Virus record (IMG/VR): IMGVR_UViG_3300031857_017177
Coordinates: 1 to 23,660 of that record
Length of the DNA stretch: 23,660 bases
Source: a virus
Direction: 5' to 3' (one strand)
Positions 2,734 to 22,910 of the stretch are shown piece by piece. The notes beneath the pieces are model-generated. The model searched no databases. It was not told the origin of the DNA and was given only the letters and a program-made list of their open reading frames with translations. Within the stretch, counting starts at the first letter, position 1. Each line of letters begins with the position of its first letter. A program made the position numbers and the translations under genes.

Positions 2734-3096
2734 ATGTTACTACCAATTTTAGGCGGAGTTGTAGAATTAGGAAAAACTTGGTTAGAAGGTAAAAATACCA
2801 AGATAAAAGCAAAAGCAGAAGCCGAAGCTACGGTGCTTGTAAAATCTGCTGAAAGCGAAGCAAACTGGGAAAATATAATGGCCCAGAATAGTGCTTCTTC
2901 TTGGAAAGATGAATGGCTGACTATTCTTTTTAGTTTACCTATGATACTGTGTTTTTTCCCAGATACGGTTCAATATGTAAGAGATGGATTTACCGCTCTT
3001 GATAGTATGCCAGACTGGTATCAGTATACCTTGTCCGTTATTGTAGCAGCATCATTTGGAGTTCGCTCCGCTATTGGATTTATGAGGAAAAAATGA
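2734..3096 (+). CDS. Holin-like membrane protein
   Basis: This 120-aa protein has a short hydrophobic N-terminus (LLPILGGVVELG), then a charged Lys/Glu/Ala-rich helix (about residues 20-40). After SSWKDEW come two hydrophobic stretches (about 58-72 and 98-116), and it ends in RKK. This layout resembles the 3TM holins of gene-transfer agents and marine phages, which often carry an S-W-R/K-D-x-W junction before the membrane pair. It overlaps the lysozyme gene by 4 nt (ATGA), the usual holin-endolysin pairing. I chose ATG 2734 because an in-frame TTG at 2683 would place the terminator hairpin inside the gene. The ribosome site is weak. Confidence 0.68.
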   Translation: MLLPILGGVVELGKTWLEGKNTKIKAKAEAEATVLVKSAESEANWENIMAQNSASSWKDEWLTILFSLPMILCFFPDTVQYVRDGFTALDSMPDWYQYTLSVIVAASFGVRSAIGFMRKK

Positions 3097-3536
3097 ATTA
3101 CGAAATACTTAAAAAAGAAATCATGGATGATGAAGGCGTCAAGTACGAAATATACCTAGACCATCTTGGTTATCCAACTGTCGGTATTGGTCACTTAATT
3201 AAACCAGATGACCCTGAATATGGAAAACCTATTGGTACAAAAGTAACCGATAAAAGAGTTACTGAATTATTTATCTCCGACGCAGAATGTGCGGTGAAAG
3301 ACTGTAAAAAGTTATTTGTAAATTTTGATACGATTCCAGAGGATATTCAGCACGTACTAGTAAATATGATGTTCAATCTTGGGTACACGCGCTTTTCAAA
3401 GTTTAAAAACTTTAAAGCTGCTATTGATGTAAGAAACTGGAAAAAAGCTTCAATAGAAGGAAGAGACTCGCTCTGGTATAGGCAAGTTCCAAACAGAGCT
3501 AAAAGATTAATGGATAGACTACAGAATGAACACTGA
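3093..3536 (+). CDS. T4-type lysozyme (GH24 endolysin)
   Basis: The 147-aa enzyme cleaves the MurNAc-GlcNAc bond of peptidoglycan at lysis. The catalytic triad pattern E-x8-D-x5-T is at E14, D23 and T29, with the same spacing as E11/D20/T26 of T4 lysozyme. The context is DDEG...YLDHLGYPTVGIGHL. Later segments LVNMMFNLGYTRFSKFKNF and WYRQVPNRAKRLMDRL match the GH24 C-lobe. There is no signal peptide, so it needs a holin, which is the overlapping upstream gene. The next gene begins inside its last codons. Lysis genes leading directly into a glycan cassette is unusual. Confidence 0.94.
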   Translation: MNYEILKKEIMDDEGVKYEIYLDHLGYPTVGIGHLIKPDDPEYGKPIGTKVTDKRVTELFISDAECAVKDCKKLFVNFDTIPEDIQHVLVNMMFNLGYTRFSKFKNFKAAIDVRNWKKASIEGRDSLWYRQVPNRAKRLMDRLQNEH

Positions 3537-4143
3537 AAGTAAAGTTTACCACAAATACAGAAATAGAAAATTTATTATGTGTGCTACTGGGCCTTCGCTA
3601 ACACCGGAGGTAGTAGAGACTATTCGTAAATATAAAGGAGACCACGTAGTTTTTGGTATAAATGACGCATATAGAACTATAGATTTTTTGGACGAGCATT
3701 ATGCTTGTGACGAAAAATGGTGGGAGTGCTGGGGCGCAGACTTTCGTGAGAAATACCCACATCTATCCTCTTGGGCTTACGGCAGTAACGCGGCTAAATG
3801 GGGTGTGAAAGTTATAAAAGGATTCCACAATACTGGATTCAGTCTTAGACAAGACAAAGTTCATTATGGGTCAAATTCCGGATATCAAGCTCTAAATATT
3901 GCATTTTTAATGGGCGGACGAAAGTTTATTTTAGTTGGCTATAATATGCAAAAAATTAAAGGTAAGAGTCATTTTTTTGGCGACCATATGCAAATGAGCA
4001 ATAATAGCCCCTATAATATTTTTGTTCAAAATTATAATAGCATACAAGGCCCTATTAGAGATCTTGTAGTTAATTGTACAGAAAATTCTGCTTTGAACTG
4101 TTTTCGAAAAAGTAATTTAGAAGAGGAATTACAAAGTGATTAA
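3526..4143 (+). CDS. Sialyltransferase-like/DUF115-like protein
   Basis: This 205-aa protein opens with a Rossmann-type segment FIMCATGPSL (residues 16-25), followed by VVFGINDAYR (41-50). Later comes GSNSGYQALNIAFLMGG and then FILVGYNMQ. The order 'G-x-GPSL ... N-D/A ... SG-x-x-A-L-x-x-A-x-x-x-G ... I-x-LVG-Y/F-D' is shared by GT29/GT42 sialyltransferases and the MptE/DUF115 fold. I therefore call it a putative glycosyltransferase of that fold, substrate unknown. It is the first gene of the glycan cassette. Its ATG overlaps the lysozyme stop by 11 nt with no clear ribosome site, suggesting coupling to lysozyme translation. A non-catalytic DUF115-like protein is possible. Confidence 0.6.
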   Translation: MNTESKVYHKYRNRKFIMCATGPSLTPEVVETIRKYKGDHVVFGINDAYRTIDFLDEHYACDEKWWECWGADFREKYPHLSSWAYGSNAAKWGVKVIKGFHNTGFSLRQDKVHYGSNSGYQALNIAFLMGGRKFILVGYNMQKIKGKSHFFGDHMQMSNNSPYNIFVQNYNSIQGPIRDLVVNCTENSALNCFRKSNLEEELQSD

Positions 4144-4768
4144 AATATTTGTCGGTACTTCCCAAAACGGGGAAGATGCTGTTGCAGAAAAAACTTTAGA
4201 GTATTCTTTAAGAAAACACTCAAGCGAACCACTTGAGGTTATTTTTATGAGAAATAATGATTCTTATATGGGGTATTTTAATAACTCTACATGGGCTACA
4301 CCATTCACCAATCTTCGGTGGACTATACCAGAATATTGTGGATTTACTGGAAGAGCTATCTATATGGATGTAGACCAGCTAAATTTAAAAGATATTTCTG
4401 AGCTATATAATATTGATTTAAATGGCAAGCCTTTCGCCTCACGCGAAGATCGCCTTTGTGTTATGGTTATTGATTGTGCGGCTATGCAATCTCTAGTGCA
4501 GCCAGTATCCGTAATTAAAAATACTCCAAACTATGGTACGAGCATTTATTGGGATATTGTTAAGAAAAGCCATCACTTTGACCCAAGATGGAATTGTCTA
4601 GATGGGGAAGATCGACCTATATCAGATATATGGCATCTTCATTTTACTTCCATGCCAACGCAACCCTGGAAACCGGCATGGTTTCGTGGAATACCAAAAC
4701 CACATTGGAGAAAAGATTTAGTAGACTTATGGGATATGTATAGAATTGAGGCGTATGCGAATGCTTGA
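4136..4768 (+). CDS. GT-A glycosyltransferase, GT8-like
   Basis: The 210-aa protein starts MIKIFVGTSQ, as in GT8-like proteins. It carries the metal- and nucleotide-sugar-binding DxD motif within RAIYMDVDQ (D78, D80). A late His-rich segment DIWHLHFTSMP with WKPAW resembles the HxxGxxKPW region of glycogenin-like GT8 enzymes. The likely role is transfer of a sugar from a nucleotide donor, cytoplasmic, acceptor unknown. The start is GTG with AGAGGA about 9 nt upstream, overlapping the previous gene by 8 nt. It is followed by an overlapping GT2-like gene. Confidence 0.72.
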   Translation: MIKIFVGTSQNGEDAVAEKTLEYSLRKHSSEPLEVIFMRNNDSYMGYFNNSTWATPFTNLRWTIPEYCGFTGRAIYMDVDQLNLKDISELYNIDLNGKPFASREDRLCVMVIDCAAMQSLVQPVSVIKNTPNYGTSIYWDIVKKSHHFDPRWNCLDGEDRPISDIWHLHFTSMPTQPWKPAWFRGIPKPHWRKDLVDLWDMYRIEAYANA

Positions 4769-5468
4769 TATCATAACGCCTAGTGGCGATAGGCCACTTC
4801 AGTTTTCTTTGTGTGTAGAGTGGATGAAAAAACAAACTTTTACTGGCAAAGTGAACTGGATTATAGCAGATGACAGTATAGCTTCTCATTATGAAACTCC
4901 AAAAATGCCAGATAATTGGAGCGTAACGCATTTAAAAATTAATAGACTAACTTTACCAACTTTTAGTACTCAATCAGATAATATATTGAAAGCATTGGAA
5001 AATGTGAAGAATGATAAAATCGTTATGGTAGAAGACGATGATTATTATCATCCAAGTTGGCTAGAAACTTGTGATAAAAATTTAAACAATTGTGATATTT
5101 TTGGCAGGACAAGAGTTATTTTTTATAACATTTCAAATAAAACTTTTTGGGATAAACAGTATAATAATGGTTTAAACCCAATGTGCCAAACTTCGTTTAA
5201 AAGTACGTTAATACCTAAATTTAAAGATATCTGTAGTAAAAATACAGAATTATTAGACCATTTACTTTGGGGATTAGTAGAAGATAGCAAAAAAATATTT
5301 TTAAGTAATAATAAAATAGAGTACGTTATTGGAATAAAAGGATTATCGGGTCGTGGTGGAATGAGTAGAAAACATACAATGATATTCAATAATCCAGACC
5401 CAGACTACTATTATTTAAAAAAATTTATTGGCGAAAATGCTTTAACTAGGTATAAACAATATGCTTAA
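4761..5468 (+). CDS. GT2-like glycosyltransferase
   Basis: The 235-aa protein has a GT-A/GT2 layout. The N-terminal strand MLDIITPSGDRPLQFSLCV is typical of GT2. Residues 36-39 (ADDS) replace the first acidic uridine-binding motif, and VMVEDDDYYHP (88-98) supplies the EDD equivalent of DxD. The family normally adds sugars from UDP- or dTDP-donors to glycan or protein acceptors. I chose ATG 4761 because GAGG lies 9 nt upstream; ATG 4755 and TTG 4746 in the same frame are too close to it or upstream of it. The gene overlaps both neighbours by 8 nt. AT-rich composition and AGA, ATA and TTA codon preference become marked from here on. Confidence 0.75.
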   Translation: MLDIITPSGDRPLQFSLCVEWMKKQTFTGKVNWIIADDSIASHYETPKMPDNWSVTHLKINRLTLPTFSTQSDNILKALENVKNDKIVMVEDDDYYHPSWLETCDKNLNNCDIFGRTRVIFYNISNKTFWDKQYNNGLNPMCQTSFKSTLIPKFKDICSKNTELLDHLLWGLVEDSKKIFLSNNKIEYVIGIKGLSGRGGMSRKHTMIFNNPDPDYYYLKKFIGENALTRYKQYA

Positions 5469-6072
5469 CATAGCTATAATTGGTCACGGCCCTAGCTTAT
5501 TAAATTCAAATTTAGGTAATAATATAGACTCTTTCGATATAGTTATACGTCAAAAAGCAGTGTCACACTCTTTGATGACTACTTACCCTGAAGATTTTGG
5601 TAAAAAAACTTCTATAATTTGTGGCTCCTACACAATAAAAGAAGCTTTATTTTGGGATTCTAAGGCAGATATATGGGTTTTCGCCGATTCTAGGCACGAA
5701 AAAATAAATATAAAACCAGACCTAAGATTTACATTATTAAAAGATAAATGTGATTATTGGAATGATTTCTATAGGTCTTTAAGAACTGAAAACTTTACTA
5801 GACATGAAAAAATGACAATTCATCCAACATCTAGTGATGTTGGGCACAACCACATGAGTTGTGGATTGCATACCATTATGTACGCTTGCGAAATTCTAAA
5901 ACCAAAAAAATTAACTTTATTTGGTTTTGATAATGTAAGTTCTGGTACATTTAATTGGTCTTTAACTAGAGGCCCTACTTGGGGTCAGTATCCTGACCAT
6001 AGATGGGATATTGAAAAAGAAATGCTGTTGATATTAGTTGATAGATACTCTATAGAATTAGAATTTATATAG
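5461..6072 (+). CDS. Sialyltransferase-like glycosyltransferase (GT29/GT42-type fold)
   Basis: This 203-aa protein follows the sialyltransferase pattern closely. It has IGHGPSL at residues 7-13, FDIVIRQ at 25-31, and DFGKKTSI at 45-52, like the 'DxGxKTT' part of sialylmotif L. It also has SCGLHTIMYACEIL at 133-146 then LTLFGFDN at 151-158, like sialylmotif S. A His in YPDHRWDIEKEM (177-188) aligns in position with the catalytic His region of CstII. The expected chemistry is transfer from a CMP-activated acidic sugar, but no CMP-sialate synthesis genes are in the window. The donor may be host-made or different. It overlaps the GT2-like gene by 8 nt. Confidence 0.68.
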   Translation: MLNIAIIGHGPSLLNSNLGNNIDSFDIVIRQKAVSHSLMTTYPEDFGKKTSIICGSYTIKEALFWDSKADIWVFADSRHEKINIKPDLRFTLLKDKCDYWNDFYRSLRTENFTRHEKMTIHPTSSDVGHNHMSCGLHTIMYACEILKPKKLTLFGFDNVSSGTFNWSLTRGPTWGQYPDHRWDIEKEMLLILVDRYSIELEFI

Positions 6073-6081
6073 GATTAAATA

Positions 6082-6645
6082 ATGAAACTTGTAGAATTTA
6101 TAGAATCAGTTGAATATGAAAAAACTGATAAGTATTATTTAGGACTTATACATGAAGTTTATGAAATTATTTTTACTGAAAGTTTGAGGGATAGTACTTT
6201 AAATTTACTAGAAATAGGTATAAAAGATGGTTTATCGCTTTTATTGTGGAAAGATTATTTTTTAAATGCAACAATAACTGGGATTGATATAAAAGAATGT
6301 TTATCTTTAAATAAAGAAGAAAGAATTATACAATTAATAGAAGATGCATATACTATAAATACAGTTAAAACTTTACCAAGTAACTTTGATATTATAATTG
6401 ATGATGGGCCACATACCCTGGAGTCAATGATATTTTTTTTAACACATTACCCAAATTTATGCCGCAAGGGTGGATTAGTTATATTAGAAGATATATTATA
6501 TGCTGATTGGATGCCGACTTTATTAAGTATAGCAAAAACCCACGGAACAGTTAAGCATAAAAATATCAAAAATTTAATGAGATCTGATAGGCTACAGAGA
6601 AAGTGGAAGGACAGGGATTACTTTACTATTGTACTAGAGGTTTAA
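6082..6645 (+). CDS. Class I SAM-dependent methyltransferase
   Basis: The 187-aa protein has the Rossmann methyltransferase order. LLEIGIKDGLSLLLWKDYF is motif I, where the usual E-x-G-x-x-x-G carries IKDG. ITGIDIKE gives the acidic residue that binds SAM ribose. FDIIIDDGPHTLESM is motif IV, and GGLVILEDI is motif V-VI. This resembles sugar or cephalosporin-hydroxylase-like methyltransferases of the Methyltransf_24 type. In a glycan cassette, O-methylation of a sugar is the simplest role. It has its own AGGA ribosome site and a 9-nt gap to the previous gene, and abuts the next. Confidence 0.75.
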   Translation: MKLVEFIESVEYEKTDKYYLGLIHEVYEIIFTESLRDSTLNLLEIGIKDGLSLLLWKDYFLNATITGIDIKECLSLNKEERIIQLIEDAYTINTVKTLPSNFDIIIDDGPHTLESMIFFLTHYPNLCRKGGLVILEDILYADWMPTLLSIAKTHGTVKHKNIKNLMRSDRLQRKWKDRDYFTIVLEV

Positions 6646-7308
6646 ATGAAAGTTTTTATTGGGTGGGATTCTCGAGAAGAGATAGCGTATGAGGTTTGTA
6701 AAAAATCTATTAAGCTGCATAATGATTTTATAGAAGTGTACCCGATTAAACAACAATACCTACGGGAGCTAGGAATATATAGAAGAGAAGAAGACCCGCT
6801 AGCTTCAACAGAATTTACACTAACTAGATTTTTAGTTCCATATTTAAGCGACTACTCTGGAATATCAGTATTTATGGACTGCGACATGTTAGTACAAACA
6901 AATATTATGGGCGTTTTACAAGAAATTATATACAAGGGGGACCCTGTAAGTTGTGTGCAGCATGAAAGTTATGTACCCAAATCCTCTATAAAGATGGACG
7001 GAAGAGTACAGCATACATATCCAAAAAAGAACTGGTCTTCTTTCATGGTTTTTGATTGTGGGCACCCTGAGGTAAAAAAGAATCTAACTTTGAGTAAAGT
7101 TAATTTATACTCCCCACAGTATCTTCATAGAATGGAGTGGGCTTCTTCTATAGGAAAACTACCCCACACTTGGAATTATTTAGTTGGCTATTACAACGAT
7201 ATAAAGCATCCTAATGTTTTACATTATACAGATGGCGGCCCCTGGTTTGACGAATACTCAAATTGTGAATTTTCAAATAACTGGTTAGAAGTAGCAAAGC
7301 ATGTTTAA
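6646..7308 (+). CDS. GT8-like glycosyltransferase
   Basis: The 220-aa protein begins MKVFIGWDSREEIAYEVC, an N-terminus I associate with phage and bacterial GT8-like transferases. Its metal-binding DxD is in VFMDCDM (D78, D80). The C-terminal LHYTDGGPWF resembles the His/Gly-rich donor-binding end of this family. It is preceded by GAGG and a 5-nt spacer at the ATG, directly after the methyltransferase stop. It overlaps the next glycosyltransferase by 8 nt. Cytoplasmic; donor and acceptor unknown. The DxD is intact, so activity is expected. Confidence 0.8.
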   Translation: MKVFIGWDSREEIAYEVCKKSIKLHNDFIEVYPIKQQYLRELGIYRREEDPLASTEFTLTRFLVPYLSDYSGISVFMDCDMLVQTNIMGVLQEIIYKGDPVSCVQHESYVPKSSIKMDGRVQHTYPKKNWSSFMVFDCGHPEVKKNLTLSKVNLYSPQYLHRMEWASSIGKLPHTWNYLVGYYNDIKHPNVLHYTDGGPWFDEYSNCEFSNNWLEVAKHV

Positions 7309-8020
7309 TATATATACAACATTCTCACCCGCTGACTATAGATTATACGGCAGTAGGTTTATAGATACTTTTTTACAGTATTGGCCAGAAGATATAAAAT
7401 TGTACATATACTATGAGGGAACTCCAGAGATATTAAATGACAGAATAGTATGGGTGGATTTTAACAGAGAATGTCAAGAGCAAATTGAGTTTGTAAGAAG
7501 AGGTCTGTCAATTAAGCAAGACTCTTTTTATAGAGGGGCTGCAAGATTTTCATATAAAGCGTTCACTATAATAAACCACTTAGAGAAAAATATAGATAGA
7601 TACAATATATGGTTGGATGCTGATTGTATAACTGTTAAACCAATAAATTTAGAATGGTTAAATACTTTAAAATCTGGGGCTTCTTGTGTATCTGTACTAA
7701 TGAGAAATACTCGTGCTATTGAGTCAGGATTTATATTGACAGACAATAATCACCTAGAGTATAATACGCTTTTGCATAATTATGCTAATATTTATAGAAG
7801 CGACGAAATTTATAAATTACCAGAGTGGCATGATGGCTACATATTAACTTATGTAATAAAAAGATTTAAAATACCTTATTTCGATTTATCCCCAAATAAT
7901 GAGTATAGGGAAATCCACCCTTTTTCCGCTGGCGTTCTCGGTGAATATTTAGACCATTTAAAAGGCCCAAGAAAAGCAGACGCGGGCTCTAGAGAAAGAA
8001 ACTATTTTTGGGGGAATTAA
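7301..8020 (+). CDS. GT-A-fold glycosyltransferase
   Basis: This 239-aa protein starts MFNIYTTFSPADYRLYGSRF and contains the DxD motif in NIWLDADC (D106, D108). The following segments WHDGYILTYVIKRF and HLKGPRKAD fit a small GT-A transferase. I cannot assign a CAZy family with certainty. Its ATG overlaps the stop of the previous gene by 8 nt, and one nucleotide separates it from the next glycosyltransferase. Its AGA, ATA and TTA use matches its neighbours, so the block has probably had a common history. Confidence 0.72.
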   Translation: MFNIYTTFSPADYRLYGSRFIDTFLQYWPEDIKLYIYYEGTPEILNDRIVWVDFNRECQEQIEFVRRGLSIKQDSFYRGAARFSYKAFTIINHLEKNIDRYNIWLDADCITVKPINLEWLNTLKSGASCVSVLMRNTRAIESGFILTDNNHLEYNTLLHNYANIYRSDEIYKLPEWHDGYILTYVIKRFKIPYFDLSPNNEYREIHPFSAGVLGEYLDHLKGPRKADAGSRERNYFWGN

Positions 8021-8021
8021 A

Positions 8022-8711
8022 ATGTCAAGAAACGCAATAGTACAATTTCATATTAACCCAAGTTTATATAAAAAAGGTAATAAAACTAGTGTACTAGATA
8101 AAACTAATGAAGTTATTTTTAATTATTCAAGTAAGTCTTTTCGAGATTACTGCATAAAATATGATTTAGACTATATACTTATAACTGAGCCTAAAGTAAA
8201 TTATATTCATCCTACTTGGGAAAGATTAGATTTATGGATAAATAAAGACCATTGGTTTGATAAGTATGATAGTATATGCTATGTGGATACAGATGTATTT
8301 GCGCTGCCAAAAGCCGATAACATATTTTCTTTTAGTAAAGATAATAAATTTTGTAGAGTACCCTACTGGAAGGCAAACAAAGAGTTAGATCAAGATAGTA
8401 TTTTTATAGGTACTAGAATAAAAGAATCCGGATTTCAGGCGGGGGTTATTTTATTAAATTCATACGTTATAGAAAAAACTATAGATGACGTACTGGACTA
8501 TAAAAATATAAAATTTACTGATGATTCTGTACTATTAAATTATGCCATAGCTAATAGTGATATTGATATTTATAATATACCTGAAACATTCAATGTTAAA
8601 TATACGCCCAACACTAATTTATCCGTAGTTAATTTTTTGCACGCTTTTGGAAAATTTAAAGTAAATCACCCAGAAGCATTCTTATCAACTTTAAAAGGAA
8701 TTTTTAATTAA
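8022..8711 (+). CDS. GT-A-fold glycosyltransferase (GT8-like)
   Basis: The 229-aa protein has the motif SICYVDTDVF with DxD at D89 and D91. After it, ESGFQAGVILLNS matches the 'FNSGVMLIN' strand of GT8 enzymes. The DDSVLLNYAI segment is like 'DQDALN' in the same family. These are good signs of an active retaining GT8-like transferase. The C-terminal NFLHAFGKFKVNHP has the family-like late His. It is preceded by a GGGGG ribosome site and followed 2 nt later by the nucleotidyltransferase gene. It is the last transferase before the precursor-synthesis genes. Confidence 0.77.
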   Translation: MSRNAIVQFHINPSLYKKGNKTSVLDKTNEVIFNYSSKSFRDYCIKYDLDYILITEPKVNYIHPTWERLDLWINKDHWFDKYDSICYVDTDVFALPKADNIFSFSKDNKFCRVPYWKANKELDQDSIFIGTRIKESGFQAGVILLNSYVIEKTIDDVLDYKNIKFTDDSVLLNYAIANSDIDIYNIPETFNVKYTPNTNLSVVNFLHAFGKFKVNHPEAFLSTLKGIFN

Positions 8712-8713
8712 AT

Positions 8714-9445
8714 ATGAATTTGATACTTTGTATAGCTGGATTAAACACTAGATTTCACGATGTTGGATTTGATATACCAAAATATCTTTTACCCTGGAAT
8801 AACACAACTATTATTTCAGAAATTATAACTCAACTCAGTTATGGGTATGATTTTGATGAAATTATAATCTTAGCAAATAGTAGAGATAAATATTTTAAAA
8901 ACAATTTATATTCAACACTTGAAAATGTCCCAAATAAACATATTTACTATATTGCGGACACTCTTGGACAAGCGCATACGGCAATGGTTGGTGCTAGTCT
9001 ATTAAAATATAAAAATAAACCTATTGCTATTATGAATGGGGACACTATATTAAAAGGAAGAAATTTTTTTGATATAGAAAAATTTGCGATTAAAAACGAT
9101 GCTTATGTTGATGTATTTATCTCAAATAACCAAAAGTATAGTTATGTAAAATCAGACTCTAATGGGTATGTTCAACAAATTGTAGAAAAAATACCAATAT
9201 CTCCTTTTGCTAGTTCTGGACTGTACTGTTTTAAAAGTTCTGAATTTTATATGGAACAGTTTAACGAAACTGTAGAAATGTCACAAAACTCAGAGATATA
9301 TGTGTCAAATATTTTAAGTAATATGATTAGCGCTAAAAAATTTGATATTTACTCTAACGGTTTAGATAATAACCATAAAACTATTGTTTTGGGGTCTCCG
9401 TATGAATATGGTATAGAATTTGCTAAATTAATGGTTACTACATAA
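8714..9445 (+). CDS. Sugar-phosphate nucleotidyltransferase
   Basis: The 243-aa protein has the nucleotidyltransferase signature CIAGLNTRF (residues 6-14) followed by PKYLLPW (22-28), equivalent to G-x-G-T/S-R-F...P-K-x-L-L/M. It also has LGQAHTA (84-90) and the metal-binding IMNGDTIL with D110. These mark an enzyme that joins a sugar-1-phosphate (or cyclitol phosphate) to an NTP, releasing pyrophosphate. It lacks the C-terminal beta-helix of GlmU/GlgC-type enzymes. It opens the four-gene precursor set (nucleotidyltransferase, kinase, cyclase, SDR). Sugar and nucleotide cannot be read from the sequence. A CTP-type capsule nucleotidyltransferase is an alternative. Confidence 0.78.
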   Translation: MNLILCIAGLNTRFHDVGFDIPKYLLPWNNTTIISEIITQLSYGYDFDEIIILANSRDKYFKNNLYSTLENVPNKHIYYIADTLGQAHTAMVGASLLKYKNKPIAIMNGDTILKGRNFFDIEKFAIKNDAYVDVFISNNQKYSYVKSDSNGYVQQIVEKIPISPFASSGLYCFKSSEFYMEQFNETVEMSQNSEIYVSNILSNMISAKKFDIYSNGLDNNHKTIVLGSPYEYGIEFAKLMVTT

Positions 9446-9446
9446 A

Positions 9447-10421
9447 ATGAAAGTAACTAAATTAAAAGGCGGTTCTTTAAGCTCAACTGTTCTTGTAGAA
9501 AGTGACAGCACTAAATTTGTTAGAAAATCTGTAAATACAACAAAAGATAGAGAGTACGGCTTTATACGCTGGTACTCTCAATTAAAAAAGATGCAAAGAT
9601 TATCCGAACTGCATAATAGTCTTTTCCCAAAAATTTTAAATGTAGGCTATGAAAATGGCAACGCATTCTTTGATATGGAGTATCTTTCAGGGTTTACAGA
9701 TATAAAAACTATTTTTACTGAAAGCAATGTTGAAGATACTCAAATAAAAAAGATTAATGATGCTTTGTGGAAAGCTTTTGATGCATTACATAGTTATACA
9801 TATAAGTCTCTACCAAACATTTCTTTCTTGTATTTTATAGAAGAGATAGAGCAAAAAATTTTAGACGCTAAAAAAATGAGTTCAGATTTCTATAAATTTA
9901 CTGAGCAAGATTACTACATATTCAACGGCAATAAAATATCTAATTTAGCTAAGTATAAAAGCTCTTTAGAAAAAATATTTAAAAACCTCAAAATAGACTT
10001 AGAAGGTAATATACATGGTAACCCTACATTAGAGAATATAATGTACTCTTTTGATGAAAATAGAGTTGTGTTTATTGACCCATATGAAGAAAGTGTTGTA
10101 GATACAAAATATTTAGATTATTCTATGGTATTGCAGTGTTCTAGAAGTTACTATGGATTTATAAATGATAATTCCGTTAGTATAGACTTTCCACACATAA
10201 ATAAAAACAATAAAAAAATACCTCACCCTTTCATTCATTTTAATACAAGTTTTGAAGAGGAGCTAACTAAGCGAGTTAAAAATTTAAATATTATTTATAT
10301 TTTGGAGGCTTCTCAATTTATAAGGATGTTACCATTTAAATGTGCGGCTGGCGAAGTAGAAAAAGCAAAGTATTTTTATGCGCATGCCAGTAATTTAATA
10401 GAAAGGTGTATTAATGAATAA
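9447..10421 (+). CDS. Aminoglycoside-phosphotransferase-like kinase, catalytic Asp replaced
   Basis: The 324-aa protein has an APH/protein-kinase-like layout. It has the N-lobe strand LKGGSLSSTVLVES, the strand-3 Lys in KFVRKS (K27), the hinge MEYL (77-80), a helical middle, then IHGNPTLENIM (189-199) and VVFIDPYEE (207-215). In the APH family the second-last motif is H-G-D-x4-N, with Asp as catalytic base and Asn and the later Asp as metal ligands. Here that Asp is Asn (N192, codon AAC at 10020-10022), while N197 and D211 are kept. Between a nucleotidyltransferase and a cyclase, a sugar or cyclitol kinase role is expected. The substitution may mean altered or lost activity. Confidence 0.72.
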   Translation: MKVTKLKGGSLSSTVLVESDSTKFVRKSVNTTKDREYGFIRWYSQLKKMQRLSELHNSLFPKILNVGYENGNAFFDMEYLSGFTDIKTIFTESNVEDTQIKKINDALWKAFDALHSYTYKSLPNISFLYFIEEIEQKILDAKKMSSDFYKFTEQDYYIFNGNKISNLAKYKSSLEKIFKNLKIDLEGNIHGNPTLENIMYSFDENRVVFIDPYEESVVDTKYLDYSMVLQCSRSYYGFINDNSVSIDFPHINKNNKKIPHPFIHFNTSFEEELTKRVKNLNIIYILEASQFIRMLPFKCAAGEVEKAKYFYAHASNLIERCINE

Positions 10422-11556
10422 TATCTTAAACAATTTTAATAACTACAAAAGATCTTGGAACGTAACATCAGAATTACCTATTAATTTTACAATAAAATAT
10501 TCTAGCGATATATTTAACCCTATAAACCATGATATACTACAGTATAATGACTCTACTAGAAGAATAGTAATTATAGATAAAATAATAAATGATTTGTACG
10601 GTGAAAATATATTATACTATTTTTCCTGTTTAAAGATAGATTTAAAATTATGTGTTATTGACTCAAAAGAAGAAAATAAAAATTGGGAGCACGTAAATAG
10701 TGTTTTAAAATTTTTTGAAGATCTATCTCTGTTAAGAAGAGAGCCCATAATAGCAATAGGTGGTGGCGTACTATTAGATTTAGTTGGATTTTGTGCCTCA
10801 ATATACAGAAGGGGCATTCCATATATAAAAGTACCAACTACTTTACTAGCAATCGTGGATGCTTCAGTTGGGGTTAAAGTTGGAGTTAATCATTTTAATA
10901 GAAGAAATAGAATAGGTTCTTATTACCCGCCAATCGCTACTTTTATAGATAAAAAATTTATAAACACCCAGGATGAGCGAAATATTGTAAATGGCATAGC
11001 AGAAATATACAAGTTAGCTTTAATAAAAGATGAGGAGCTATTTTTACTGTTAGAGGACAATTACGCACAATTGATACTAGAAAAATTTCAGTATGGCGCA
11101 GTACCGGTTAGAGTAATTAATTTAGCGATAACTGGAATGATAAATGAGCTAGCCCCAAATCTTTGGGAGAAAAAATTAGACAGATGCGTAGATTTTGGGC
11201 ATTCATTTAGCCCATTAATTGAAATGAAAAATATGATAAATTTATATCATGGCGAAGCTGTAATTTTAGATTGCTTATTCAGTTCCTGTATATCTTATAA
11301 CAGAGGATACATAGATAAAGAACAATTAAGTAGAATATTCATAACAGCTAAAAATTTAAAACTGCCAACATTCCATAAAGATTTTACTAATATTGAACTA
11401 TTAAAAAATTCTTTAGAAGACACTATGAAACATAGAAATGGCAACCAGTATCTGCCTGTACCAGTAAATATAGGAAACTATACTATACTTAATGACCTTA
11501 CTCAGCAAGAATTAAAAGAGGCTATAGACACATTTATAGTTTTAAATAATGATTAA
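10414..11556 (+). CDS. Sedoheptulose-7-phosphate-cyclase-like enzyme (EEVS/DHQ-synthase superfamily)
   Basis: The 380-aa protein belongs to the sugar-phosphate cyclases. It has GGGVLLDLVGF (116-126), YRRGIPYIKVPTTLLAIVDA (131-150), GVKVGVN (153-159), RNRIGSYYPP (164-173) and GIAEIYK (194-200). The metal ligands of DHQ synthase are kept as E197, H263 and H279. Two features favour the C7-cyclitol branch (2-epi-5-epi-valiolone or desmethyl-4-deoxygadusol synthases) over DHQ synthase. These are DFGHSFSP (260-267), with Pro where DHQ synthase has its second His, and HRNGNQYLPVPVNIG (340-354) near the end. The family cyclises sedoheptulose 7-phosphate using NAD+. It has an AAAGG ribosome site and 8-nt overlaps with both neighbours. 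Confidence 0.85.
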   Translation: MNNILNNFNNYKRSWNVTSELPINFTIKYSSDIFNPINHDILQYNDSTRRIVIIDKIINDLYGENILYYFSCLKIDLKLCVIDSKEENKNWEHVNSVLKFFEDLSLLRREPIIAIGGGVLLDLVGFCASIYRRGIPYIKVPTTLLAIVDASVGVKVGVNHFNRRNRIGSYYPPIATFIDKKFINTQDERNIVNGIAEIYKLALIKDEELFLLLEDNYAQLILEKFQYGAVPVRVINLAITGMINELAPNLWEKKLDRCVDFGHSFSPLIEMKNMINLYHGEAVILDCLFSSCISYNRGYIDKEQLSRIFITAKNLKLPTFHKDFTNIELLKNSLEDTMKHRNGNQYLPVPVNIGNYTILNDLTQQELKEAIDTFIVLNND

Positions 11557-12214
11557 AAATATTGTCATAACCGGGACTTCAAAAGGTCTAGGAAATTCCT
11601 TAGCAAAATACCTTTTAAATAAAGGGCACAAAATATTTGGCATCAGTAAAACTTTGTGCCCAATTGAACACGAAAACTATAGGCATATACAACTAGATAT
11701 AAGTTCTCCAGAAGTTGATATATTTAAAAATTTCAGCAAAGATTTTAAAATAGATATATTAATAAATAATGCCGCTATTTTTTTAATGAAAAAATTCGAA
11801 GAGACAAGTTTTAGTGAAATAAATAATATAATAGGAACTAACCTATTAGGATCTATTTACATCACAAAATCTTGTATTCCTCATATGAATAATGGAGCTA
11901 AGATAATATTTGTAAACTCTGTTGCGGGTTTACAGGAATTAGAAAATCAATCTATATATTGTGCGTCAAAAGCTGGTTTAACCTCTTTTGCCGGAGTTTT
12001 AGGATTGGAGTTAAGAAGTAAAAATATTTCTGTTACTAGTATACATCCAGGGGGTATAAATACTACATTGTGGTCTGATAAAAATCCTTATCCATGCGGA
12101 GATGTTTCGGAGGCACTATCAACAGATGACATTTGTAACTTAGTGGATCTTATACTATATTCAAAGGCAGTGTATAAAAATATAAAATTATTTCCATCAA
12201 TTGAGTGGCATTAG
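11549..12214 (+). CDS. Short-chain dehydrogenase/reductase
   Basis: The 221-aa protein is a classical SDR. The cofactor motif TGTSKGLG is at 8-15, an Asp after the second strand (LDIS, D50) is present, NNAA is at 73-76, and the catalytic residues are S124 (VNSVAG) and Y137-x3-K141 (YCASK). The HPGG segment at 166-169 follows. It should oxidise or reduce a hydroxyl or keto group with NAD(P)(H). Overlapping the cyclase gene by 8 nt, it probably acts on the cyclitol or a sugar intermediate, comparable in role to the oxidoreductase of acarbose-type pathways. It is the last gene of the AT-rich cassette. A new promoter starts 4 nt after its stop. Confidence 0.85.
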   Translation: MIKNIVITGTSKGLGNSLAKYLLNKGHKIFGISKTLCPIEHENYRHIQLDISSPEVDIFKNFSKDFKIDILINNAAIFLMKKFEETSFSEINNIIGTNLLGSIYITKSCIPHMNNGAKIIFVNSVAGLQELENQSIYCASKAGLTSFAGVLGLELRSKNISVTSIHPGGINTTLWSDKNPYPCGDVSEALSTDDICNLVDLILYSKAVYKNIKLFPSIEWH

Positions 12215-12271: not shown

Positions 12272-12862
12272 ATGAATCTATTTTATCTTGATGACGATCT
12301 CGACAAGTGTGCCGAGTATCATGTTGATAAACACGTAACTAAAATGCAGCTCGAAGCCGCACAAATGATTTGCACTAATCTTTGGATAGATATGCTACTC
12401 GGCTATGTGCCTCGCGCACTTAATAAAGAAGAAAATAAAGTTCTTTCCGTCAAGCGAATCGAACAGTCCGCTCTTCCGCTAGAGGAGCGGACTATTCCTT
12501 ATTTGCCAACAATGCAAAACCATCCTTGCACAATTTGGATGCGCACATCTCTTGATAACTTTGAGTGGTCGCATTGCTATGCTAACGCGCTCAGTTCCGA
12601 GCAGCATTATCGCTATGGAACTACGCACAAATCAATCACAGTTATCAATAGTCTTCCCGATCCGAAAAATATTCCTTCGATCGGGTTTACAAAGTTTGGT
12701 CTTGCAATGCCCGATCAACTTAAAAACTATGACGATCCAATCGGCTCTTATCGTATGTATTATATGCTAGATAAGGGTACATTTGCCTCTTGGAAGAGTC
12801 GTTCAAAGCCTTACTGGTGGGACGAGAGTATTGCAGACTATGAAAAAAGGATTACACGATGA
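12272..12862 (+). CDS. Conserved phage protein of unknown function
   Basis: The 196-aa soluble protein begins MNLFYLDDDLDKCAEYHVDK and continues HVTKMQLEAAQ. I recognise this N-terminal pattern (hydrophobic strand, acidic run, H-x-D-K-H-x-x-K-M-x-L-E) from many marine phage proteins without an agreed function. Conserved-looking acidic, His and Lys residues and the later HPCTIWMR and YRMYYM segments suggest an enzyme, but I will not assign one. The start follows a short leader of about 20 nt behind a strong promoter. It overlaps the next small gene through ATGA. GC content returns to a higher level here, unlike the preceding cassette. Confidence 0.8.
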   Translation: MNLFYLDDDLDKCAEYHVDKHVTKMQLEAAQMICTNLWIDMLLGYVPRALNKEENKVLSVKRIEQSALPLEERTIPYLPTMQNHPCTIWMRTSLDNFEWSHCYANALSSEQHYRYGTTHKSITVINSLPDPKNIPSIGFTKFGLAMPDQLKNYDDPIGSYRMYYMLDKGTFASWKSRSKPYWWDESIADYEKRITR

Positions 12863-15303: not shown

Positions 15304-16221
15304 ATGAAAGATTTTCTAGACCGTGCGGCGAAAGCCTATTACGACGGCAACCCAATTATTAGTGATGAAGAGTTTGATGCTCTTTCTTCTGCTTTTTCTT
15401 ATGAAAGTGTGGGCGCAAGCGATGGCGAGTACCCACACCTTTTTCCAATGTATAGCCTTCAGAAAGTATTTGAGGGTGAATCATCTCCGGACTATTTTTC
15501 CTTCCACGACTTTATTGTAACTCCAAAACTTGATGGAGCTGCTGTAGCACTTGTCTACGAGCAGGGCATCTTCGTGCGCGGGCTTACACGAGGCAATGGA
15601 AAGAAGGGTAGAAATATTACTTATCTTCTTCGGCATCTTGTTCCGAATATAATCTATACACAGGAAACTATTCAGATTACTGGAGAAGTAGTAGCCCCGA
15701 AAACTATTCCTAATGCACGAAACTATGCTTCTGGAGCACTCAATCTCAAGTCGATTGATGAGTTTCTCACTCGTGATCTTACGTTTATTGCTTACGATGT
15801 TCAAAGCAAAGTTACAGATAGTTTTGTAGAGGATATGCGACTTCTTACAGAGTTTGATACTATTCTAGATTCAGACTGGGATCTCTTTCCGCACGATGGA
15901 AAAGTATTTCGTATTGATAGTAATTCAGTTTTCGAAGAGCTAGGATATACCGCACATCATCCACGTGGTGCCTTTGCTCTCAAAAGAAAGGCAGAAGGGG
16001 TGGTTACAAAACTACTCGATGTAAAGTGGAATGTCGGAAAGTCTGGCGTAGTTGCTCCAGTAGCAATTCTAGAGCCAGTAGTGGTCGGAGAAGCAACAGT
16101 ATCAAAAGCTACTCTTCACAATATTCGATTCATTGAAGAGATGGATCTTGAGATTGGGTGTCTAGTTGAAGTTATTCGATCTGGTGAAATTATTCCCAAG
16201 ATTGTGAGGAAAGTAAAGTGA
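15304..16221 (+). CDS. ligA: NAD+-dependent DNA ligase, N-terminal part (adenylation and OB domains)
   Basis: The 305-aa protein covers the Ia remnant, nucleotidyltransferase and OB domains of LigA. The nucleophile motif TPKLDG gives K75, and MYSLQKVF precedes it. RGLTRGNG takes the place of the usual RGDG, then ITGEVV, NARNYASGAL, AFALKRKAEG and KWNVGKSGVVAPVAILEPV lead to ATLHN and IIPKIV. It stops where the Zn finger would begin, and the remainder is encoded at 16941. It seals nicks in DNA with NAD+. T5-like phages also carry this enzyme as two proteins. GAGGA is 6 nt before ATG and a promoter lies just upstream. Confidence 0.95.
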   Translation: MKDFLDRAAKAYYDGNPIISDEEFDALSSAFSYESVGASDGEYPHLFPMYSLQKVFEGESSPDYFSFHDFIVTPKLDGAAVALVYEQGIFVRGLTRGNGKKGRNITYLLRHLVPNIIYTQETIQITGEVVAPKTIPNARNYASGALNLKSIDEFLTRDLTFIAYDVQSKVTDSFVEDMRLLTEFDTILDSDWDLFPHDGKVFRIDSNSVFEELGYTAHHPRGAFALKRKAEGVVTKLLDVKWNVGKSGVVAPVAILEPVVVGEATVSKATLHNIRFIEEMDLEIGCLVEVIRSGEIIPKIVRKVK

Positions 16222-16940: not shown

Positions 16941-17684
16941 GTGAAAATAATTGTTCCGACTAATTGCCCAAGCTGCGAGTCCCCGCTCGTATGGAAAAAT
17001 GACCAGCTCTTTTGCCTTAACGCAGATTGCAGCAGCAGGGCTTTTAAGCGAGTACAGCATTTTGCACATACTCTCAAGATTAAGGGTCTCGGCCCCGCCG
17101 CAATTCAAAAGCTCGACATTCAGGACATTTACGATATTTATCATATGTCTATTGAGCAAATTGCAGAAGGTCTACAATCCGAAAAGCTAGCAGCAAAACT
17201 TGTAGAAGAGATTGAAAAATCAAAGTCTGCTTCTCTTGACTTGCTTCTTCCCGCTTTTTCTATTCCTCTGATCGGTAAGACTGCCGCAGAAAAACTCTGC
17301 AAGGTTATTAACCACATTTCCGAGCTGACTTCAGAGGTCTGTGAAAAAGCAGGTATTGGCCCAAAAGCCACAGAAAATCTATTGAATTGGTTTGAAGAAG
17401 AGTTTGTTGGTATCTCTTCTCTTCCATTCACTTTTAGTACCGCTGGCATTGAAAGTAAACCAACTAAAGGTATTGTTTGTATTACAGGTAAACTGAAATC
17501 GTTCAAAACCAAGGCAGAAGCCGAAAAGTTCCTACTAGATTTGGGATATATTGTAAAATCTTCTATAACAAAAGAAGTCACAATTCTAGTGAACGAAAGC
17601 GGTGTTGAATCTGCTAAAACCCAAAAAGCTAGAGACAATGGTGTCTCTATTATTACTAACCTCTCTGATCTTACAGGTGAATAA
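16941..17684 (+). CDS. ligB: NAD+-dependent DNA ligase, C-terminal part (Zn finger, HhH, BRCT)
   Basis: The 247-aa protein begins with the LigA zinc finger (C9, C12, C25, C30; NCPSCES...FCLNADC). It continues with helix-hairpin-helix repeats (HTLKIKGLGPAAIQKL, FSIPLIGKTAAEKL, KAGIGPKATENLL) and ends in a BRCT domain (KGIVCITGKLKSF onward, about residues 170-247). These modules grip DNA and are needed with part A to form the clamp, so the two proteins probably assemble into one enzyme. The start is GTG after a weak site (GAGAAAG). The 719-nt gap between the parts holds two genes and a promoter. The symbol follows T5 usage; it is not the E. coli LigB. Confidence 0.93.
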   Translation: MKIIVPTNCPSCESPLVWKNDQLFCLNADCSSRAFKRVQHFAHTLKIKGLGPAAIQKLDIQDIYDIYHMSIEQIAEGLQSEKLAAKLVEEIEKSKSASLDLLLPAFSIPLIGKTAAEKLCKVINHISELTSEVCEKAGIGPKATENLLNWFEEEFVGISSLPFTFSTAGIESKPTKGIVCITGKLKSFKTKAEAEKFLLDLGYIVKSSITKEVTILVNESGVESAKTQKARDNGVSIITNLSDLTGE

Positions 17685-20676: not shown

Positions 20677-20761
20677 GCCTCGATGGCGGAATAGGTAGAC
20701 GCTACGGACTTAAAATCCGTTTCCTTCGGGAGTGCCAGTTCGATTCTGGTTCGAGGTACCA
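20677..20761 (+). tRNA. tRNA-Leu (anticodon UAA)
   Basis: The cloverleaf has acceptor GCCTCGA/TCGAGGT with a G-U first pair, the leucine-type D arm GGCGGAATAGGTAGACGC, anticodon stem ACGGA/TCCGT with loop CTTAAAA, and the long variable arm TTCCTTCGGGAGT typical of class II tRNA. CCA is encoded. It reads UUA, which is frequent in the AT-rich genes of this phage. Confidence 0.95.
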
Positions 20762-20765
20762 AACT

Positions 20766-20933
20766 ATGAAAGAATGTGGAAGTCAAAAAGTTGAGCGAGT
20801 AGTACATAATGGAGTTAAAGCATATAGAGTTACTGAAGTTATAGGTTCTTATAACGGTCAAACTTTTATGGCTACAACTTTTTATACTCGCAAAAACCCA
20901 ACATTTGATTATATGGCTGAAGATGTGTTGTGA
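20766..20933 (+). CDS. 55-aa hypothetical protein
   Basis: The ORF begins MKECGSQKVERVVHNGVKAY and contains TEVIGSYNGQTFMATTFYTR, a likely beta-hairpin-rich small fold. Its TGA stop overlaps the GTG start of the next gene (GTGA), so the pair is coupled. It follows tRNA-Leu by 4 nt, and there is no ribosome site that I can see. No family recognised. Confidence 0.5.
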   Translation: MKECGSQKVERVVHNGVKAYRVTEVIGSYNGQTFMATTFYTRKNPTFDYMAEDVL

Positions 20934-21175
20934 AAACTCTGAGCGATCTTATACCAGACTCTGTTCTTCAGAGAGATTATCCTCATGTTGCACAAAATTT
21001 AGTAGATTTTTGGGGTACGTCATACTTTAATGACTATATAGACCAATTAGCTACTACGAAAAGAAATGATAGGAGCGGGTTCTCCTTTGAGGCATTAATG
21101 GAAATACAAAAAGTGTTGGAAGCTCACATAGCTAGGTTTCCACACTACAAAAGAATATATACGGCTTGGTTATGA
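20930..21175 (+). CDS. 81-aa hypothetical protein
   Basis: The 81-aa helical protein begins at GTG overlapping the previous stop. It runs MKTLSDLIPDSVLQRDYPHV and has a central aromatic segment (FWGTSYFNDYIDQL), then a helix FEALMEIQKVLEAHIARF with PHYKRIYTAWL at the end. It overlaps the next ORF by ATGA. Predicted soluble. I do not recognise it. Confidence 0.6.
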   Translation: MKTLSDLIPDSVLQRDYPHVAQNLVDFWGTSYFNDYIDQLATTKRNDRSGFSFEALMEIQKVLEAHIARFPHYKRIYTAWL

Positions 21176-21339
21176 GAGAATCTACAATAGAGCAAAAAGA
21201 AGACATTTTTTTAGTACGTTTGTATGAGATAGTACTTATAAAGATAGTCACTGCCTCTAGTAAAAATGAGGCGGAATTTATCAGTAGATGCTGGGACTCA
21301 GGTATTTTTTCTAAAGATGAATTTGATTATGGAAATTAG
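21172..21339 (+). CDS. 55-aa hypothetical protein
   Basis: The ORF starts at ATG 21172 overlapping the preceding TGA, giving MRESTIEQKEDIFLVRLYEI and ending FDYGN. Its middle (FLVRLYEIVLIKIVTASSKNEAEF) reads as a beta-strand pair followed by an amphipathic helix containing AEFISRCW, a layout seen in small phage proteins. It overlaps the start of the next gene. No function assigned. Confidence 0.5.
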   Translation: MRESTIEQKEDIFLVRLYEIVLIKIVTASSKNEAEFISRCWDSGIFSKDEFDYGN

Positions 21340-22015
21340 TGAGCCAATTGGAATTATACAGATAGGTTTAGACCATAAATTTAAAATAGCAGAAGAGAAC
21401 CATGCTATGCTATATAAATTTTTGTCTAATAAATACAATATAAATATATACAATTTTTATAGAGAAGACCCTATACCAGGTTGCCCTTTCAATACTAGCG
21501 CTACTATACAGTTATATGATTTTTTTAGCTCTGCTGAGAAAACATCTGAAAAAATTATTTTGAAAATAAGATCGGACGTTTTTTTAACAAAAAGCTCTAT
21601 TGATATTTTATGCCAAGAGATAGATGCAATAGTTAGTGGTGAAATAGATATTTCATATCTTGGTTTGTATTTTTCTACCGAATACGATAAAATATGTGTT
21701 AGAAAAGATGTAAAGGAATGTTATAAAGTACCGGATAAAATAGTCATTGCTAGAAAAGATAAATTAATAGACAACTGGCTTAATACTATTCATAGTGTTG
21801 GCAGCAGCACTAGCGGAAATGTAGCCTATCTACAAATAAAAAATACAATTTCTGTAGCAAGAATGGTTAGTTGTCAAATGTATATAGTTCAAAATAATTT
21901 TGATGTAGTAGATAATTGGCAAATATACTATGATTGGTGCAAACGCTATAAAGAAAAGTCTCCAATAGCGGTTGATTGGGTACTAAATAATTTTGACTTA
22001 ATAAGAACATTTTAA
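21329..22015 (+). CDS. Putative glycosyltransferase-like protein (WavE-like)
   Basis: I place the start at ATG 21329 (MEISEPIGIIQIG), overlapping the 55-aa ORF by 11 nt; ATG 21317 is possible. The 228-aa product contains IILKIRSDVFLTKSS, reminiscent of the '(I)-x-K-x-R-S/T-D-x-x-L' strand of WavE/LPS-synthesis type proteins. A similar IIRIRYDLIVS occurs in the protein at 22924, which points to the same fold. A possible transferase for surface glycans, cytoplasmic, unknown donor. AT-rich with ATA/AGA/TTA codons as in the main cassette. Flanked by small ORFs and a tRNA, it may be a laterally gained gene. Confidence 0.5.
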   Translation: MEISEPIGIIQIGLDHKFKIAEENHAMLYKFLSNKYNINIYNFYREDPIPGCPFNTSATIQLYDFFSSAEKTSEKIILKIRSDVFLTKSSIDILCQEIDAIVSGEIDISYLGLYFSTEYDKICVRKDVKECYKVPDKIVIARKDKLIDNWLNTIHSVGSSTSGNVAYLQIKNTISVARMVSCQMYIVQNNFDVVDNWQIYYDWCKRYKEKSPIAVDWVLNNFDLIRTF

Positions 22016-22022
22016 TAATCAC

Positions 22023-22099
22023 GGGACTTTAGCTCAGTTGGTTAGAGCAGCCGACTCATAATCGGTAGGTCGTAGGTTCAAATCCTACAAGTCCCACCA
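22023..22099 (+). tRNA. tRNA with CAU anticodon, probably tRNA-Ile (lysidine-type)
   Basis: Full cloverleaf: acceptor GGGACTT/AAGTCCC, D arm AGCTCAGTTGGTTAGAGCA, anticodon stem GCCGA/TCGGT around CTCATAA, T arm CGTAGGTTCAAATCCTACA, A discriminator and encoded CCA. CAU could mean elongator Met, initiator Met or Ile. The paired first base rules against initiator tRNA. The GACTCATAATCGGTAGGTCG segment resembles bacterial tRNA-Ile2, whose C34 becomes lysidine and reads AUA, a codon favoured in this phage's AT-rich genes. Identity between Ile2 and elongator Met is not certain. Confidence 0.9.
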
Positions 22100-22113
22100 A
22101 ATTGGAAATAATA

Positions 22114-22824: not shown

Positions 22825-22834
22825 ACTTTTATAA

Positions 22835-22910
22835 GTTCCGATAGCTCAGAGGATAGAGCAGTATCCTTCTAAGATACTGGTCGGGGGTTCGAATCCCTCT
22901 CGGAACGCCA
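22835..22910 (+). tRNA. tRNA-Arg (anticodon UCU)
   Basis: Cloverleaf with acceptor GTTCCGA/TCGGAAC, D arm AGCTCAGAGGATAGAGCA, anticodon stem GTATC/GATAC with loop CTTCTAA, T arm GGGGGTTCGAATCCCTC, G discriminator and encoded CCA. It reads AGA, the commonest arginine codon by eye in the glycan genes here. Confidence 0.95.

Follow-up and report, generated by a model that had tools for sequence, protein, structure and literature searches.

Why should a phage carry a gene for a sugar-phosphate cyclase, and what might it make with the product? The question is raised by four adjacent genes at positions 8714-12214 of the window, by which we mean the whole stretch of virus DNA analyzed here (IMG/VR record IMGVR_UViG_3300031857_017177, positions 1 to 23,660; 23,660 bases). 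The four open reading frames (ORFs), named NTP, APH, CYC and SDR (Table 1), are intact and all lie on the plus strand; NTP and APH are 1 base apart, and APH/CYC and CYC/SDR each overlap by 8 bases. In a preliminary description of this DNA they were read as genes for a nucleotidyltransferase, an APH-like kinase, a cyclase and a short-chain dehydrogenase/reductase (SDR). Their coordinates, intactness and families were borne out, that of the kinase by its fold: the products of NTP, CYC and SDR score above the Pfam cut-offs, and the APH protein scores below its own. With a probability of about 0.6, we read the set as a mobile and apparently phage-specific module whose four enzymes would make a nucleotide-activated C7-cyclitol, and which would be carried by phage glycan islands as cargo open to exchange.

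The CYC protein contains the Pfam domains DHQ_synthase (125.7 bits, cut-off 24.2) and DHQS_C (73 bits, cut-off 27.6), and alignment together with Foldseek indicates that the fold and the zinc ligands of the dehydroquinate (DHQ) synthase superfamily are retained. Among solved structures, phmmer gave 300 bits for the 2-epi-5-epi-valiolone synthase (EEVS) ValA (4p53) and at most 136 for DHQ synthases; 2-deoxy-scyllo-inosose synthase (DOIS), compared through PDB scores only (phmmer and Foldseek), reached 90. The second-best relative, at 209 bits, was desmethyl-4-deoxygadusol synthase (DDGS; PDB 5tpr) of the mycosporine sunscreens, which is also a sedoheptulose 7-phosphate (S7P) cyclase. A Foldseek search with the AlphaFold2 model of CYC, which is of moderate quality (pLDDT 78.7, three stretches below 50), ranked 4p53 first (E 3.2e-30), with 5tpr at 5.5e-26 and DHQ synthases from 1.8e-22.

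The active-site positions point the same way. Both motifs quoted in the preliminary description as marks of S7P cyclases, DFGHSFSP and HRNGNQYLPVPVNIG, are present, and alignment recovers P267 and the residues E197, H263 and H279, which we take to be the zinc ligands. At the positions aligned to Arg264, Asn268, His275 and Lys356 of the Aspergillus nidulans DHQ synthase, CYC has D, D, P and H, ValA has R, D, P and H, and DDGS has D, A, P and T; the residue set of AroB is thus not the one found in CYC. The Lys356 column is weak evidence, as the aligned DHQ synthases show no Lys there either. The two fingerprint residues of ValA (positions 287 and 366 of the 4p53 chain) are present in CYC as D260 and H340. 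Asp and Pro occupy the Asn268 and His275 sites, as in ValA, in all 92 phage cyclases covering the site, and His occupies the Lys356 position in all 91 that cover it (82 by pattern and nine read from the sequence, with positions by alignment). A DDGS identity of CYC was rejected, the fingerprint Ala and Thr being replaced by D and H.

In a tree of 31 sequences, 16 phage cyclases formed one clade (96/97) with a Prevotella amnii protein as sister (98/95), and the DHQ synthases were split from the side of the phage proteins and S7P cyclases with 100/99. CYC does not lie among true DHQ synthases, a placement that would have spoken against the earlier assignment. Database scores, fingerprint residues, tree and Foldseek agree on a cyclase of the S7P kind, as first proposed. 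The phylogeny suggested at that stage was realized for EEVS, DDGS and DHQ synthases; because known 2-epi-valiolone synthase (EVS), amino-DHQ synthase and DOIS sequences are absent from the tree, EEVS is the best label for CYC within the S7P cyclases, short of proof.

The four genes form a conserved unit. Among 95 viral contigs (one locus per contig, with loci recurring under several identifiers, here numbered with L; L002 is nearly the window itself), 77 carry NTP-APH-CYC-SDR in this order, 15 are cut by the record end, two are without the nucleotidyltransferase, and one, the 394-kb record L151, has the order APH-CYC-SDR-NTP. The recurrence of one gene order in 77 of 95 contigs led us to reject chance neighbourhood, and disposes of the concern, voiced in the preliminary description, that the genes might never co-occur in relatives. 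The window cyclase as query found 34 viral loci and a cyclase profile 72; another five contigs came from a third cyclase profile (best 80 of 116 loci). All 64 cyclase-first loci reaching far enough upstream read NTP-APH-CYC (the other eight are truncated upstream), and CYC is followed by SDR wherever the contig continues. When the kinase gene was used as the starting point, 79 of the best 80 of its 85 relatives adjoined the cyclase gene and one was cut by the record end. The cyclases compared (133 sequences, some contigs repeated) fall into 37 clusters at 95% identity and 14 at 80%, so the module is not one phage seen repeatedly. In ten pairs, the ratio of nonsynonymous to synonymous divergence (dN/dS) was 0.04-0.18 for NTP, APH and CYC and below 0.4 for all four genes, with dS above 1.5 in several pairs.

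Comparison of related islands revealed that the module is exchanged with genes of nucleotide-sugar type. The nearest long relative of the window, the 106-kb record L161 (helicase 87% identical), shares both island borders, i.e. a gene reading like that at 4136 and the gene at 12272 (89% identical). Its island contains, among others, NDP-sugar dehydrogenase, epimerase, WecB-, PseB- and RmlD-like genes, and no such cyclase was found in the record. For the T4-like carriers, an anchor gene was followed through the best 80 of 248 loci. At least 7 kb is available after it in 26, of which 23 have the module and three have other genes; this proportion is not a population frequency, as the anchor query came from a carrier and 54 of the 80 loci ended too early for a judgement. 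Two of the three, L300 and L307, encode an APH-like kinase and a nucleotidyltransferase-like protein between the same neighbours. The L307 kinase scores 29.4 for Pfam APH, above the cut-off, and the L300 kinase 22.3, just below it; the partner genes match Pfam in a HAD part only, the nucleotidyltransferase part being read from the sequence. Since the place of the module is taken by other nucleotide-sugar type genes, a nucleotide-activated product would fit, and in our view nothing else suggests as strongly as this exchange that the module contributes to glycan assembly.

Some islands have further genes of note. The L390 locus encodes, at 2799-4034, a RuBisCO-large-family protein (PF00016, 147.9 bits) that matches solved RuBisCOs and RuBisCO-like proteins. 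In L390 and L394 (2947-4058, two ORFs), which represent another phage lineage, the nucleotidyltransferase gene is separated from APH-CYC-SDR by a gene of this family and a small ORF that reads as cupin-like and matches nothing in Pfam. In L152 and L154 the module is embedded in a bigger cluster of sugar-type genes, among them one resembling a heptose kinase (95 bits with the HddA model in L154, cut-off 600) and others reading as RfaE-like and epimerase-like. An apparent HAD phosphatase-nucleotidyltransferase fusion is encoded in other phage glycan islands (L314, 10929-12305; S-CAM9, L156, 4341-5726).

The NTP protein belongs to the NTP_transferase family (PF00483, 54.2 bits, cut-off 21.2; phrog_3980, E 9e-36) and carries G..TR and PK, which we take to be the nucleotidyltransferase signature. 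All NCBIfam models stay far below their cut-offs (best 55.8 of 292.1), and the closest solved relative, found with a phage profile, is the nucleoside-diphosphate-sugar pyrophosphorylase 4evw (E 1.2e-29). R13, K23 and D110 are invariant in 19 phage sequences. The SDR protein (PF00106 adh_short, 125.9 bits, cut-off 26.6; phrog_3142, E 1e-39) contains the motifs TGxxxGxG and YCASK, and its dN/dS of 0.09-0.39 is the highest of the four genes. The SDR genes of L031 and L034 differ with dS 0.91 and dN 0.36, whereas NTP, APH and CYC of these two cassettes differ with dS of only 0.15-0.33, which suggests that SDR genes are swapped.

The APH protein of the window reaches 16.3 bits with Pfam APH, below the cut-off of 23.2 (E 0.0085); its L390 homologue lies above it (23.7). 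An AlphaFold2 model built from 24 phage sequences (pLDDT 92.3) has the APH fold, with Z 19 to APH(4)-Ia over 263 residues, followed closely by methylthioribose kinases, FN3K and others. The best Foldseek match is methylthioribose kinase 2pu8 (E 5.8e-7, TM 0.44), and a profile search of solved structures gave no match at 0.001. In all 24 aligned phage sequences K27, E36, N197 and D211, which by likeness to APH we take to be ATP and metal residues, are invariant, and N192 replaces the catalytic Asp of the HGD motif. E196 in the loop GNPTLEN was considered as a stand-in for the missing Asp and rejected, since HGD occurs together with TLEN or TLQN in the kinases of the alternative modules. Of the earlier label "APH-like kinase", the fold stands by model, whereas the catalytic Asp is Asn in every readable member, so that "kinase" is a fold assignment only. 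The invariance of the other ATP and metal residues and a dN/dS of 0.09-0.18 in the ten pairs indicate that the protein is conserved and selected; it would either act without the usual base, or act slowly, or do something else.

C7-cyclitols have been encountered chiefly in actinobacterial inhibitors and, via related cyclases, in sunscreens. In the proposed pathway, S7P, a normal host metabolite, would be converted by CYC to 2-epi-5-epi-valiolone or an isomer with loss of the phosphate. The SDR would reduce the ketone of the cyclitol, the APH-fold protein would phosphorylate the free cyclitol, and the nucleotidyltransferase would turn the cyclitol phosphate into an NDP-cyclitol. Neighbouring transferases may then place the cyclitol, or cyclitol phosphate, onto a glycan of the infected cell or of the virion. 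Each substrate, the order of the SDR and kinase steps, the nucleotide and the final target are those that we infer from the gene set. In the acarbose route as outlined in PMC9200736, the cyclization product carries no phosphate and is then phosphorylated by a kinase; it therefore makes sense for a cyclase of this type to be accompanied by both a kinase and a nucleotidyltransferase.

The likeness to acarbose and validamycin biosynthesis drawn in the preliminary description holds for part of the pathway. A cyclase that shares its subclass and both fingerprint residues with ValA, a kinase (by fold), an oxidoreductase and a nucleotidyltransferase occur in one cluster, and kinases, a nucleotidyltransferase and an oxidoreductase lead toward an NDP-cyclitol in the acarbose route as well (PMC9200736). 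However, the phage cyclase is about 40% identical to the EEVS of validamycin and acarbose, and the ROK kinase of those pathways (AcbM/ValC) has an APH-fold kinase-like protein as its counterpart in the phages. Neither in the module nor in the window proteins compared with Pfam (part of the ORFs) did we find a C-2 epimerase, an enzyme for the dehydration step, a ROK kinase, a HAD phosphatase or a pseudoglycosyltransferase; host enzymes are a possible source of such steps. The four-gene module is shorter than the acarbose route, in which AcbC, AcbM, AcbO, further steps, AcbU, AcbJ and AcbR lead to GDP-valienol (PMC9200736). Among four plasmid loci labelled S7P cyclase, a ROK gene adjoins the cyclase gene in three (L075-L077) and not in L079, as far as the incomplete gene table goes. 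In contrast to the Nostoc locus L078, the phage module has no O-methyltransferase gene directly behind the cyclase. AmgK/MurU and LicA/LicC are pairs of an APH-family kinase and a nucleotidyltransferase that activate an unphosphorylated substrate. The phage module shares this combination, and look-alike pairs replace it in L300 and L307, but it adds a cyclase and an SDR and has Asn for the catalytic Asp.

Variable islands with glycosyltransferase and nucleotide-sugar genes, which the present island resembles, have been described as lipopolysaccharide or glycan clusters of cyanophages and pelagimyophages, and host-surface change and a block to co-infection were proposed for them (PMC7824862, PMC7029224). 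The function of phage glycan genes is left open in PMC3037559, and DNA and the virion are discussed as targets of phage glycosyltransferases in PMC12619734. The present module differs in that a carbocycle would be the building block, and passages on those clusters (PMC7824862, PMC7029224, PMC3037559) mention no sugar-phosphate cyclase. The word "dehydroquinate" is absent from the main texts of PMC7824862, PMC7029224 and PMC12619734, and "cyclase" from PMC3037559. No phage S7P cyclase appeared in the titles and abstract openings of the open-licence literature among the matches listed.

Several observations weigh against a nucleotide-activated cyclitol as the product. The DHQ synthase Arg264 position is Arg in ValA and Asp in the phage proteins (in three bacterial S7P cyclases it is K, E and S). 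Asn stands at the catalytic Asp of the APH protein in all 87 contigs covering the loop, including relatives at 35% identity, while HGD is kept in the L300 and L307 kinases and in a distant homologue on a Legionella sainthelensi plasmid (22.9% identical), whose gene adjoins HAD and sugar-phosphate nucleotidyltransferase genes. Two records, L089 (138 kb) and L091 (73 kb), have APH-CYC-SDR and no such nucleotidyltransferase within the record; in L390, L391, L393 and L394, counted among the 77, that enzyme is 22-24% identical and its gene lies about 1.6 kb away. A transaldolase, which could increase the supply of S7P, was sought in 15 records (14 carriers among them) without success. The donor of known pseudoglycosyltransferases, GDP-valienol, contains a double bond, and general chemistry suggests that a saturated NDP-cyclitol would be a poor glycosyl donor. 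Because the donor would be saturated and the module has no dehydratase, it is not evident how a classical glycosyltransferase would use it, and transfer as cyclitol phosphate is a serious alternative to glycosyl transfer.

The replaced aspartate bears most directly on what the APH-fold protein does. It might be a pseudokinase scaffold or perform other ATP chemistry, e.g. AMP transfer, with the phosphate coming from elsewhere; we give this a minor but real chance. HGN is unbroken in the readable members, beside the HGD of the alternative modules. Asp-to-Asn at the catalytic site is a usual kinase-dead mutation, and such mutants of protein kinases (PAK2 D368N, CaMKII D136N) are among the structural matches. 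Yet the invariant ATP and metal residues and the low dN/dS speak for a working protein, the logic of the pathway requires a kinase, and HER3 is a weakly active natural kinase with HRN. The module could also yield a free or phosphorylated cyclitol, a small carbohydrate mimic that inhibits glycosidases or kinases of the host or of competitors, instead of a glycan donor. We hold this to be slightly less probable still. The known EEVS pathways include those of diffusible inhibitors such as acarbose (PMC9200736), a survey of jumbo phages suggests that some cyanophages make a secondary metabolite from a sugar (PMC7824862), and the two records without nucleotidyltransferase would suit such a product; but 78 of the 80 contigs not cut by the record end retain the enzyme, and the module resides in glycan islands, in exchange with nucleotide-sugar type genes.

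Two further explanations are far less probable. That CYC is a DHQ or amino-DHQ synthase, hence an auxiliary gene of shikimate type, might be read from its best NCBIfam model, aroB (216.6 bits). This score is under the model's cut-off of 305, however, and the margin of ValA over DHQ synthases, the D, D, P, H residue set and the position outside the DHQ synthase clade (in a tree with no amino-DHQ row) make such a function very improbable. Host contamination or a misassembled bacterial island would accord with the occurrence of EEVS genes in bacteria and with the GC content of the island, which is lower than that of its flanks (27-38% in the genes from 4136 to 12214, about 40% in most flanking phage genes). 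We regard it as the least credible of all, as the module occurs in many separate viral assemblies, a T4-type prohead protease is encoded in six of ten long carriers, and a terminase was matched in seven of 14 carrier records (one below cut-off). A scan of genome contigs with two strict peptide patterns matched 19 stretches, of which one was confirmed, the Prevotella amnii cyclase (43% identical).

Of the claim that the phage makes a nucleotide-activated cyclitol, the kind of cyclase, the gene unit and the exchange fit, and the missing catalytic Asp does not. On the sequence data at hand the cyclitol pathway is the best reading, although unproven, with the kinase as its weak and most interesting link. 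If it is right, phage glycobiology would gain a new class of building block, made by a compact module found across uncultured phages, and the four enzymes would constitute a route to NDP-cyclitols shorter than that of acarbose. The APH protein offers a natural test of a kinase fold without the catalytic aspartate, and the islands raise the concrete, testable question of what leads phages to swap complete nucleotide-sugar modules at fixed positions. More tentatively, several unrelated phage lineages may share a pseudo-sugar module that installs its product in a surface or virion glycan, as a building block resistant to cleavage by ordinary glycosidases and by the depolymerases of rival phages, and its kinase might be an obligate Asn-for-Asp variant with an unusual catalytic mechanism.

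The carriers appear to be of more than one kind. The window helicase is closest (30-32%) to those of phages of 109-122 kb, presumably of the T5 kind, and the window phage looks different from the T4-type carriers. Among the best 80 of 263 helicase relatives, only L158, a near-copy of the window, has the cyclase or the kinase; many of the others are short, and absence is weak evidence where records are short. A tblastn search of a phage collection found no record with the module, the cyclase giving AroB-like matches under 33% only and the kinase none. The Prevotella amnii genome has no match to the nucleotidyltransferase of the window. When 395 genomes of its phylum were compared with the cyclase profile, no other genome reached 1e-65, and a weak match to the kinase (7.5e-7) was seen in one further genome; the module may still be of bacterial origin.

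Table 1. Predicted genes of the glycan island and its right border in the window (single positions are those at which genes are listed)
Gene	Position	Strand	Features
GT8 gene	4136	+	Pfam above cut-off
GT2-like gene	4746	+	Pfam GT2 below cut-off
GT29-like gene	5461	+	Pfam GT29 above cut-off
Methyltransferase-like gene	6082	+	Pfam, just below cut-off
GT8-like gene	6646	+	Pfam GT8 below cut-off
Two genes without Pfam family	7301, 8022	+	PDB matches chance-like only
NTP: sugar-1-phosphate nucleotidyltransferase, RmlA/GlmU-like	8714..9445	+	243 aa; PF00483 NTP_transferase
APH: APH-fold kinase-like protein	9447..10421	+	324 aa; HGN for HGD in catalytic loop
CYC: sedoheptulose-7-phosphate-type cyclase	10414..11556	+	380 aa; DHQ_synthase + DHQS_C
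SDR: short-chain dehydrogenase/reductase	11549..12214	+	221 aa; PF00106 adh_short
Conserved phage gene, island right border	12272..12862	+	phrog_624

The genes upstream of the module had been described as a glycosyltransferase array, which is confirmed for two of them (4136 and 5461); the remainder either stay below the Pfam cut-offs or are methyltransferase-like or without a family (Table 1). LicD, Stealth and glycerophosphotransferase proteins, candidates for the acceptor step, were not found in the window proteins compared with Pfam (part of the ORFs). Promoter-like sites are not in excess in the window (58, compared with 53.1 in shuffled sequences, sd 7.3). Terminator-like sites number nine, compared with 4.1 in shuffles (sd 2.2), an excess not used as evidence.

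Outside the island, an apparent NAD-dependent DNA ligase, read from the sequence, is split over two ORFs (15304-16221 and 16941-17684) with two small ORFs between them; the majority of the longer helicase relatives have matches to both parts, at a variable distance from each other. Within 20677-22910, genes for tRNA-Leu, tRNA-Met and tRNA-Arg surround a second low-GC patch containing a TylF-type methyltransferase gene at 22102, and a tRNA-Thr gene is located at 113-187.

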